Origin: a virus
Length of the DNA stretch: 26,038 nt
IMG/VR virus record: IMGVR_UViG_3300046820_001517
Location: 1 to 26,038 of that record
Strand: one strand, 5' to 3'
In this document: in pieces, positions 15,655 through 17,813 of the stretch
How the letters are laid out: every line of letters begins with the position of its first letter
Numbering within the stretch: position 1 is the first letter of the stretch
Notes under the pieces: generated by a model
The model's database searches: none
Seen by the model: the letters and a program-made list of their open reading frames with translations, nothing else
Told to the model about the DNA's origin: nothing
Program-made: the position numbers and the translations under genes

Positions 15655-15681
15655 AAACCCACAATTTTTTGTGGGTTTTTT
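15655..15681 (+). terminator. Rho-independent terminator after clpC
   Basis: AAACCCACAA / TTGTGGGTTT stem with a TTTT loop and trailing T tract, 6 nt after the clpC stop. The next late-type motif begins immediately after it. Confidence 0.9.
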
Positions 15682-15682
15682 A

Positions 15683-15691
15683 ATATTTATA
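15683..15691 (+). promoter_or_regulatory. ATATTTATA late-type promoter motif (GNAT-peptidase gene)
   Basis: Exact ATATTTATA on the plus strand, only 3 nt before the ATG at 15695. If it acts as a -10 box, the transcript would be leaderless. Confidence 0.55.
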
Positions 15692-15694
15692 AAC

Positions 15695-16429
15695 ATGATA
15701 GAAGATATTTTAAAAGGTAGATACGGTGACTATTTAGTTGGATTGGATATTTATGAAAATAAAACTAGTTTAGTTTTGTCTAGAATCATCGTTAAAGATG
15801 AATTTAGAGGAACTGGCATTGGGTCTAAAATCATGGAAGACTTAATAAACTACGCTGACAAAAATAACCAAATACTTGCCTTGACACCATCTGGTGACTT
15901 TGGTGGTAACAAAAACAGATTAATTCAATTCTACAAAAGTTTTGGGTTTAAACACAATAAAGGTCAATACAAACATTTCGGTTTTCGAGATAGTATGATT
16001 AGATATCCTAGAATGAATGAAACTATGAAACCAATGATTAAAAGTTTACTTAGAGAAGGTTTACTAACACAAGAAGAAAGTGACGTTAGAAAAGTTGCTG
16101 ATTTTGTTAATTTCGCTAAAGATTGTTTAGACATCAATGATGATGTTAAAGTAGAACTAGCTTTTGAAAAAACACCAGATATTAGAACAACTGCATATTA
16201 CAATAATGGTGATAAAAGAATGAAAATATACGTTAAGAATAGAGCAATTATTGATATTTGTCGTTCAATAGCACATGAATTAGTTCACCACAAACAAAAC
16301 ATTGACGGAAGATTTGATGATGCTGAAGACCCAGGTGCAGACGGTAGCGAATTTGAAAATGAAGCTAACGCAGTTGCTGGAGTAATAATAAGAAAATGGG
16401 GTAGATTACACCCAGATATATACGATTAA
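15695..16429 (+). CDS. GNAT acetyltransferase fused to an HExxH metallopeptidase-like domain
   Basis: The start chosen is ATG 15695; a GTG at 15671 lies inside the clpC terminator. Residues 1-105 form a GNAT fold: beta strand LSRIIV, acetyl-CoA pyrophosphate-binding loop RGTGIGSKIMEDLINYA (38-54), and the C-terminal FYKSFGF (79-85). A linker follows with MNETMKPMIKSLLREGLL (107-124), resembling a peptide shared by other proteins here. Residues 126-244 contain HELVHHKQ (194-201), a zincin helix with two His ligands and catalytic Glu195, and a downstream EFENEANAVAG (219-229) that could supply the third ligand. The two domains are known separately in phages; the fusion is unusual to me. Substrate unknown. 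The next gene starts 2 nt after its stop. Confidence 0.88.
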   Translation: MIEDILKGRYGDYLVGLDIYENKTSLVLSRIIVKDEFRGTGIGSKIMEDLINYADKNNQILALTPSGDFGGNKNRLIQFYKSFGFKHNKGQYKHFGFRDSMIRYPRMNETMKPMIKSLLREGLLTQEESDVRKVADFVNFAKDCLDINDDVKVELAFEKTPDIRTTAYYNNGDKRMKIYVKNRAIIDICRSIAHELVHHKQNIDGRFDDAEDPGADGSEFENEANAVAGVIIRKWGRLHPDIYD

Positions 16430-16431
16430 TT

Positions 16432-16740
16432 ATGGAAAATAAATTAAAAGGTGGTAAATCAGATAAATTATCAGTAAAAAACATTGCGGCTAAGTTTGAT
16501 GTTTCAAAAGAAACAATCGAAGACCAAATTGAAAAGGGTGTTAAAGTCGAAATGGAACACACTGACGATAAAGAAAAAGCAACTGAAATTGCAACTGACC
16601 ACGTATCTGAATTTCCAGACTACTACGACAGACTTGAAAAGATGGAAAAGGAAGCCGATAAGGAATTGAAAACATCTGAACCAACCGAGAACACCAAAAA
16701 ACTAATTAAACGTCTTATGCGTGAGAATTTAGGCTTGTAA
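16432..16740 (+). CDS. DUF5661-like protein
   Basis: A 102-aa protein with a helix-turn-helix-like N-terminal piece (SVKNIAAKFDVSKETIEDQI, 14-33) and then KGVKVEMEHTDDKEKATEIA and DHVSEFPDYYDRLEKMEKE. I associate the latter with DUF5661, a short phage and bacterial domain of unknown function. The C-terminus NTKKLIKRLMRENLGL resembles the linker helix of the upstream GNAT-peptidase. It is co-transcribed with that gene (2-nt gap), and its last 12 nt overlap the convergent GNAT gene. Domain recognition is from memory of the motif. Confidence 0.82.
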   Translation: MENKLKGGKSDKLSVKNIAAKFDVSKETIEDQIEKGVKVEMEHTDDKEKATEIATDHVSEFPDYYDRLEKMEKEADKELKTSEPTENTKKLIKRLMRENLGL

Positions 16741-17148
16741 TCCAACATACTCGTGACTAAAACATATTCGTTTATTGTCAAAGTAATGTTCCTTATACAT
16801 ATTGGCTAACGAAACATCTTTTCTTAATTTTTTGTTCTTGCTAGTTGGTTTCCAAAAATCAGAATGTTCTCTGTAGTAACCCATTCTTGGGTGGGCTGTT
16901 CTAGAGAAATATCTATGACCTTCGTCTAAATGAATCTGAGCAATCGCATCAGAAAACCTAACACCTAAACCCATACCTTGATAATCTGGAAGGATTACAG
17001 TTCGATGACCTCTCCATGCGTTTTTTAACGTACCGCTAGGCATAGTAATAGTAGCACCAAAAGCAACTACATTCCCTTCCCATACACCGACATAACATCT
17101 AGAAGCTTTGTTTATATTTCCATCTAAATAGTGATGGTCTTTAAACAT
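16729..17148 (-). CDS. GNAT-like domain, probably the C-terminal half of a split ABC-ATPase/GNAT protein
   Basis: 139 aa from the first ATG, but the same frame is open upstream through DVYRTNYDNWG and ARPQIKL to a T9 run (17211-17203) inside the preceding ABC ATPase. The GNAT features are CYVGVWEGNVVAFGATI (18-34) as central strands and HRTVILPDYQGMGLGVRFSDAIAQIHL (48-74), with QGMGLG as the CoA loop. HHYLDG and NAWRGHRT are motifs I recall from intact proteins that join a small ABC ATPase to this GNAT. I therefore read it as the 3' portion of a gene that begins at 17813 and is broken or programmed to shift by -1. As an independent gene it would lack a promoter and a leader. Confidence 0.75.
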   Translation of the reverse strand: MFKDHHYLDGNINKASRCYVGVWEGNVVAFGATITMPSGTLKNAWRGHRTVILPDYQGMGLGVRFSDAIAQIHLDEGHRYFSRTAHPRMGYYREHSDFWKPTSKNKKLRKDVSLANMYKEHYFDNKRICFSHEYVGLQA

Positions 17149-17813
17149 TCCCCAGTTATCATAGTTTGTGCGATATACGTCAAGTTTGATTTGTGGGCGG
17201 GCAAAAAAAAACCGTCCATCAGCTCACCTGTGTCCGTATTCAAAACCCAATCTGGTTCTAACCATTCTAAAATATCGTGATGACATGTAGATAACACTAC
17301 GTTTTCTAAACCATTGTTTTTTATGTATCTAGACAATGAAATACTGGCTGCTTTTGCAACAGTCCTATCCACAACACTAGTGAATTCATCGATAACGCAA
17401 TTTGATTTTATTTTACGAGCCAAGTCAGCTCTGAATTTTTCACCATTAGAAAGCACGTGATATGGTTTATACCATGACGGCACAGAGTTTAACCCAACAC
17501 TACCCAATTTATTTATTGCGTCATCTGGATTTTCAAAATGTGATACTATGGATTTATTTGAATCCCATTGTGGTGTTTCTTCGATACCAAAATTCTTCAA
17601 TAGCGTTGACTTACCAGAACCACTGGAACCAACGATAATACCTAGTTTAAAATTCTTAGGGAGTTTACTTGGAAATTTCCAAGGGTGGAACTTAGATGTT
17701 CCGTCAAAAGCACAATCAAATGCTTTTTCGCTGGCTGTGATGAAATCATCTCGTTCAACGCTAGATACCAAGGGCTCGGCATCTTTAATTAATTTTTCTA
17801 TAACTTTACTCAT
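17124..17813 (-). CDS. ABC-type ATPase domain protein (N-terminal half of the split gene)
   Basis: The start chosen is ATG 17813 (MSKVIEKLIKDAE), 17 nt from an ATATTTATT motif; a TTG at 17831 lies in the motif. The protein has Walker A VGSSGSGKST (61-70), signature VLSNGEKFRADLAR (120-133), Walker B NCVIDEFTSVVDR (138-150) and switch His in LSTCHHDILEW (174-184). There is no membrane domain, so it is a soluble ABC ATPase rather than a transporter. After residue 201 the frame becomes unconvincing (FFLPAHKSNLTYIAQ onward). In the -1 frame from the T9 run the sequence reads ARPQIKLDVYRTNYDNWG and continues into the GNAT domain. The fusion would be about 360 aa. Confidence 0.85.
   Translation of the reverse strand: MSKVIEKLIKDAEPLVSSVERDDFITASEKAFDCAFDGTSKFHPWKFPSKLPKNFKLGIIVGSSGSGKSTLLKNFGIEETPQWDSNKSIVSHFENPDDAINKLGSVGLNSVPSWYKPYHVLSNGEKFRADLARKIKSNCVIDEFTSVVDRTVAKAASISLSRYIKNNGLENVVLSTCHHDILEWLEPDWVLNTDTGELMDGFFLPAHKSNLTYIAQTMITGECLKTITI
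17203..17211 (-). other. T9 run: candidate -1 frameshift site joining the ABC ATPase and GNAT frames
   Basis: In the coding sense the zero frame reads GAC GGT TTT TTT TTG CCC, giving a T-TTT-TTT heptamer. A -1 slip yields TTT GCC CGC CCA CAA and continues into the GNAT frame. Ten T residues instead of nine would make one continuous gene, so a homopolymer miscall is an alternative. Confidence 0.55.

Follow-up and report, generated by a model that had tools for sequence, protein, structure and literature searches.

Why do the two domains of what looks like one protein lie in different reading frames? The question is raised by a virus sequence of 26,038 nucleotides (IMG/VR record IMGVR_UViG_3300046820_001517, positions 1 to 26,038), which is called the window here. 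On its minus strand an ABC ATPase frame is followed by a GNAT acetyltransferase frame, and the change from one frame to the other occurs at a run of nine T residues (T9). A first, sequence-only reading had left three options for this break, a programmed shift, a mutation or a miscall. The comparison with relatives indicates that the locus is very probably one gene for two proteins, which would arise from programmed frameshifting where the ABC ATPase domain ends. The following features of the locus are needed for the argument:

17124..17813, minus strand: ABC ATPase frame with an alternative C-terminal tail (short product, 229 amino acids), based on the open frame and a PHROG match
17203..17211, minus strand: T9 slippery run, 0-frame GG(T TTT TTT) TTG, with the -1 heptamer T TTT TTT at 17211-17205
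16729..17223, minus strand: GNAT acetyltransferase open frame, -1 relative to the ATPase frame, based on PHROG and Pfam Acetyltransf_1
17127..17202, minus strand: dual-coded linker, which encodes RPQIKLDVYRTNYDNWG...HHY in the GNAT frame and, in the 0-frame, the ATPase tail
17124..17126, minus strand: 0-frame stop codon TAG inside TTA-G of the HHYL motif

The plus strand is exactly A9 from 17203 to 17211, and hence the coding strand is T9. The ATPase frame starts with the ATG at 17813, reads GGT TTT TTT TTG after the motif GELMDG and continues for 25 codons to the TAG (17126-17124) inside the HHYL codons. The GNAT frame is open from 17223, leads through FFFARPQIKLDVYRTNYDNWG directly into MFKDHHYLD and ends at 16729; past the T9 run, the -1 frame opens into FFFARPQIKLDVYRTNYDNWGMFKDHHYLD and the GNAT domain. 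The predicted product of a -1 shift would be an ATPase-GNAT protein of about 361 amino acids. The split across frames at T9 that the sequence-only reading had described was thus confirmed with exact coordinates, for the run, for both frames and by the PHROG matches.

Both pieces match the same profile, phrog_11143, which represents a single-protein family, and they cover adjoining parts of it, the ATPase positions 19-194 (E 5.6e-62) and the GNAT domain positions 217-351 (E 7.5e-33). The ATPase domain contains a Walker A motif, an LSxG signature, DE(F/W)TS and a CHxD motif, and the GNAT domain (Pfam Acetyltransf_1) follows directly in the -1 frame. A structural model of the long form, made for a relative with T10 (L054), consists of an ABC domain and a GNAT domain, with a predicted local distance difference test score (pLDDT) of 93.1 and a predicted template modelling score (pTM) of 0.88, and has matches to ABC ATPases and GNATs in the PDB. 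In the model of the short form of the window, residues 1-200 form a complete nucleotide-binding domain, and the tail (201-229) is disordered. The frame break falls just past the complete ABC domain, and the models agree with a clean boundary. A search of a defence-system library yielded only weak P-loop matches. ABC ATPase-GNAT proteins with the same domain pair have been predicted to modify DNA bases in a survey of jumbo phages, which cites an earlier survey of the same group (PMC7824862). That action on DNA is a prediction made in that survey only. Tenacibaculum phage pT24, which is named there, encodes a protein that belongs to the present set of relatives, and the text of the survey, unlike the present reading of the family, does not contain the word "frameshift" (0 occurrences).

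Next, the conservation of the break was analyzed. Relatives were called fused when ATPase and GNAT share one frame and split when the GNAT domain lies in another frame. The set, compiled from viral contigs, bacterial genes and annotated phages, comprised 219 fused loci, 140 loci split by -1 and only seven split by +1, and clustering at 95% amino acid identity resulted in 177 fused and 86 split (-1) clusters. A search with the GNAT piece found 69 viral contigs, most of them with the same run and the same split. At this place, T9 with a split was present in 46 distinct loci, T8 and T7 in one locus each, and T10 in two loci, both fused. The run is invariant across the 43 clusters of the window clade, with T9 in 42 and T8 in one. 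All 86 split clusters are split by -1, and the 0-frame stop is at the identical codon in 86 of 86. Fused kin with one extra base in the run were found in two clades, with T10 (L054, L037) and with A11 (L338) versus A10 in the split relatives. In a tree of 138 representatives, the state changed between split and fused at least seven times on strongly supported branches, counts that are compatible with either state as the ancestral one.

Of the three options listed by the sequence-only reading, a programmed shift is supported by the break being kept with T9 in 46 distinct loci, and a private mutation or miscall fails, as relatives share the break also at sites without a long homopolymer. The alignment of homologues across the break, which had been proposed as a check, revealed a conserved break rather than its absence from close relatives. 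The sequence-only reading had also mentioned intact single-chain relatives. These exist as fused members, but they appear to be recoded themselves, in the opposite direction (see below).

The +1-split loci that were inspected are of two kinds. In a related group (L061, L062, L064, L066) the GNAT domain is in the +1 frame after an ATPase that ends with R-G-TGA, which may represent a third type, with a shift at the stop codon, or two overlapping genes. The other, a relative of the P335 group (L287), has one more frame break, within the ATPase domain, which is probably a private defect.

Slippery sites at the break were compared between split and fused members. A slippery heptamer of the form X XXY YYZ (Y=A/T) in the right frame was present at the junction in 79 of 86 split clusters versus seven of 177 fused clusters, and the latter seven include the T10 relatives. 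The Fisher test gave p 6e-50, and at 80% identity the heptamer was found in 40 of 45 versus 6 of 142 clusters (p 9e-29); the clusters are not fully independent, so these values overstate the significance. The type of heptamer follows the lineage: T TTT TTT is characteristic of the window clade, while A AAA AAG and similar sites are found in Bizionia, Flavobacterium, Chryseobacterium and related prophages. The junction of Enterococcus phage 9184 is also A AAA AAG. Further sites at split junctions are A AAA AAT, A AAA AAA, A AAT TTT, G GGA AAG and A AAG GGC, and the run is 9-10 A residues long in 19 of 29 A-run clusters. In two relatives (L013, L014) the Walker A motif of the ATPase is interrupted by an intein-like insert (GASGCLGLGTKVLM...VTHNSGKST), and the downstream -1 junction A AAT TTT is kept.

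Stop codons in the linker were used as a control, and this led to the finding that fused genes, which need no shift to join the two domains, keep stops out of their +1 frame. This frame corresponds to the one that encodes the ATPase tail in split members. From codon -25 to codon -1 before the L of HHYL, the +1 frame was free of stops in 177 of 177 fused clusters. Synonymous shuffling that kept the protein and the codon use of each gene predicted 110.6 open frames, and at 72% identity 110 of 110 were open versus 68.9 expected. The +2 frame was at expectation (39 open, 37.9 expected), and control windows were also near expectation. In 134 of the 177 clusters the open +1 frame ends with a stop at the L codon of HHYL. 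The fraction of identical codons at conserved residues was 0.80 in the linker of split members and 0.68 in that of fused members, compared to 0.43-0.51 in the flanks. A plain test of third codon positions in the linker within the window clade yielded p 0.31; it was uninformative probably because the linker is dual-coded, and the tests of identical codons and stop codons were used instead. The ATPase tail has a near-fixed length and is under strong constraint at the nucleotide level. The sequence-only reading was right that the ATPase frame is real up to GELMDG, but its view that the frame becomes unremarkable afterwards was wrong, because a constrained tail of near-fixed length follows that ends at the same stop codon.

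The opening of the +1 frame in fused members coincides with a cassette that consists of a Shine-Dalgarno (SD)-like element and a slip codon (NGG RGG-NNN-slip codon). The cassette is carried by 141 of 177 fused clusters, in most of them at codon -26/-27; this count is descriptive, as the pattern was defined after viewing the sequences. Elsewhere in the same genes, as a control, it occurred at five of 54,758 codon positions. The slip codon in the 141 cassettes is CTT in 105, GTT in 15 and GAA in 13 cases, whereas elsewhere in these genes CTT accounts for 590 of 4189 Leu codons. The codon after the slip codon is a sense codon (CGG, CAA, TGG, AGG, TGT). In a further 28 fused clusters CTT is present but the SD-like element is missing; several of these clusters come from Bacteroidota or Bacteroidota phages (L187, L116).

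SD use was examined in the window and in the loci of its relatives. None of the 23 genes in the window has an upstream 4-base SD match (0/23), which points to a Bacteroidota host, and Bacteroidota is the probable host phylum of the window phage. Its terminase is distantly similar to those of T4-like phages (about 28-31% identity). SD use of the genes in the loci of SD-cassette members was 0.42 versus 0.21 by chance; around T-run members it was 0.05 versus 0.11, and around A-run members 0.11 versus 0.23. The anti-SD is occluded in Bacteroidota ribosomes, and frameshifting at the prfB site is poor in F. johnsoniae (PMC8710568, PMC12421855). It is thus reasonable to infer that an SD-driven +1 site was replaced by -1 slippage in Bacteroidota-type hosts. 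The more general rule that hosts without SD use always swap +1 for -1 was rejected: it fits the T-run and A-run clades but fails for the split members of Bacillota, whose flanking genes use SD motifs (0.56 versus 0.19 by chance).

These results can be combined in the following model. In split members, including the window, most ribosomes would keep to the ATPase frame and terminate some 25-30 codons further on, yielding the ATPase plus tail, and a fraction would slip by -1 on the slippery run, where both tRNAs could re-pair in the -1 frame, yielding ATPase-GNAT. In fused members the normal frame would give ATPase-GNAT, and the +1 site, with the SD-like AGG GGG or GGAGG, three bases, CTT and a probably slow codon, would give the ATPase plus tail. 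We infer from the comparisons that shifting occurs, its efficiency, that it is ribosomal rather than transcriptional at T9, and the roles of the products. Most likely, shifting would determine how much acetyltransferase there is per ATPase in an ABC dimer or a larger complex, by which the acetyltransferase would be brought to its target, which others have predicted to be a DNA base; the short form might allow a mixed dimer with one acetyltransferase or control the ratio. An ATPase-only and an ATPase-acetyltransferase product, as envisaged before, both fit the comparative pattern, but conditional control, implied by the term "regulated", is unsupported. For the family, which spans phages and several bacterial phyla, it seems fairly likely that the pair of products was fixed, that the +1 site at a sense codon and -1 slippage were swapped several times independently, often in non-SD hosts, and that both ATPase forms are required together.

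Which other explanations could account for the break? One is that a T10 run was miscalled during sequencing or assembly, or that the frame mutation is private; long runs can be miscalled, and fused T10 relatives exist. Yet the 46 distinct T9 loci face two with T10, the same split occurs at sites without long runs, and the 140 -1 splits face seven +1 splits, and this explanation is therefore extremely improbable. As an account of the whole family it was rejected, as the break is conserved, also at A AAT TTT, G GGA AAG, A6G and A7 sites. A separate gene for the GNAT protein, started by coupling or reinitiation and with no fusion in split members, is improbable. Annotations of Streptococcus, Lactococcus and Oenococcus phages do list two genes. 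However, neither the linker nor the early part of the domain contains an ATG, GTG or TTG in 17 of 29 A-run clusters and in five of nine Bacillota split clusters. Upstream of the ATG of the window clade, the GNAT frame of the linker is conserved and agrees with that of fused relatives, and it is precisely the split members in which slippery sites are enriched. It is also quite improbable that only split members are recoded, and that the open +1 frame and AGG GGG-NNN-CTT of fused members simply follow from codon usage or from the conserved protein sequence RRPxIxL. The residues of the GNAT frame constrain the +1 frame, and RG or RR ahead of the slip codon belongs to the protein sequence as well; nevertheless, the excess of open frames over synonymous shuffling (177 versus 110.6), the unremarkable +2 frame and flanking windows, and the preference for CTT as slip codon all argue against it. 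The most serious competitor, though an unlikely one, is transcriptional slippage, in which RNA polymerase would add or drop a base on T9, so that a share of the mRNAs has the restored frame. Runs of at least nine residues suit polymerase slippage. The T9 run, kept in 42 of 43 window-clade clusters, is longer than a heptamer needs, no RNA stimulator was found, and many A-runs have a similar length (9-10 A in 19 of 29). On the other hand, A6G, A7, A AAT TTT, G GGA AAG and A AAG GGC are too short or too mixed, and fused relatives carry the SD-type ribosomal cassette.

Several points weigh against programmed ribosomal frameshifting. The support is wholly comparative, comprising the conserved break, the slippery sites, the open alternative frame, the cassette and the dual-coding constraint, and the limits given above for the p values and for the cassette count apply. 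Seven split clusters have no strict A/T heptamer (L106, L022, four of Streptococcus/Lactococcus type, and L113, with A AAG GGC in its place). A stimulator, either a downstream structure or an upstream SD motif, is usual, though not obligatory, for -1 programmed ribosomal frameshifting. No downstream pseudoknot or hairpin was found in the window clade or in the A-run clade; folding downstream of T9 gave a mean z of -0.6 versus 0.14 for the control, with no consensus fold, and no SD-like element was clearly above background. The missing stimulator lowers the confidence in a ribosomal route at T9, and polymerase slippage could act there partly or wholly. An in-frame ATG just before HHYL is present in 40 of 43 window-clade clusters and would suit a separate GNAT start. 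Finally, the sense codon after CTT should make the +1 site of fused members weaker than that of prfB.

Some further observations touch on variants and neighbors. In Streptococcus and Lactococcus, L111, L112, L114 and L284 combine a -1 split without a strict heptamer with the shared sequence GTT TTT C(A/G)A ... CCC CAC GA. Acinetobacter plasmids encode a distant ABC relative without GNAT (L370:1468-2124) behind a gene for a ParB N-terminal domain, and in annotated phages ParB-like genes also precede several members of both the fused and the split type. In the window, another GNAT-like stretch, linked to a region that contains the metal-site motif AHELVHH, lies beside the ATPase-GNAT gene on the other strand (15671-16429, plus strand).

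No link between the ABC ATPase-GNAT family and frameshifting was found in the open-licence papers searched, and where these discuss the RF2-type cassette, they do so for prfB rather than for the present family. With the cassette in 141 clusters, an unrelated gene would provide another natural case, besides prfB, of SD-driven +1 frameshifting, in this case at sense codons. Exchange of +1 and -1 shifting at a single site that still yields both products would provide a rare natural experiment in the evolution of recoding, and it would also inform on the dependence of recoding on the host ribosome. The annotation of a widespread predicted DNA-modification enzyme would change, because one-gene and two-gene database records would both be incomplete, and biochemical tests of the family should cover both forms.

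How does the family compare with known systems? At the prfB site, the gene of release factor 2 (RF2), SD-like AGGGGG or AGGAGG is followed by three bases, CTT and UGA (PMC12421855, PMC8710568). The fused members share the SD-like element, the three-base spacing, the CTT and the fixed place. In contrast to prfB, they have a sense codon instead of UGA after CTT, the shift would lead to a shorter product, and the gene does not encode a release factor. Their site thus resembles RF2 frameshifting but is not a stop-codon site of the prfB type. The GeneTack survey systematically searched prokaryotes for conserved frame transitions (PMC3711429). In a scan of this kind, one-frame genes with +1 sites would presumably not stand out. 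The -1 sites can be compared with dnaX: the Flavobacteriaceae and Enterococcus members share its heptamer A AAA AAG, whereas the window clade, unlike dnaX-type sites, has no conserved downstream hairpin. In both systems, one gene has two products that share the ATPase domain. However, the dnaX frameshift yields the short form, and the -1 shift in the present family would, on the contrary, yield the long form.
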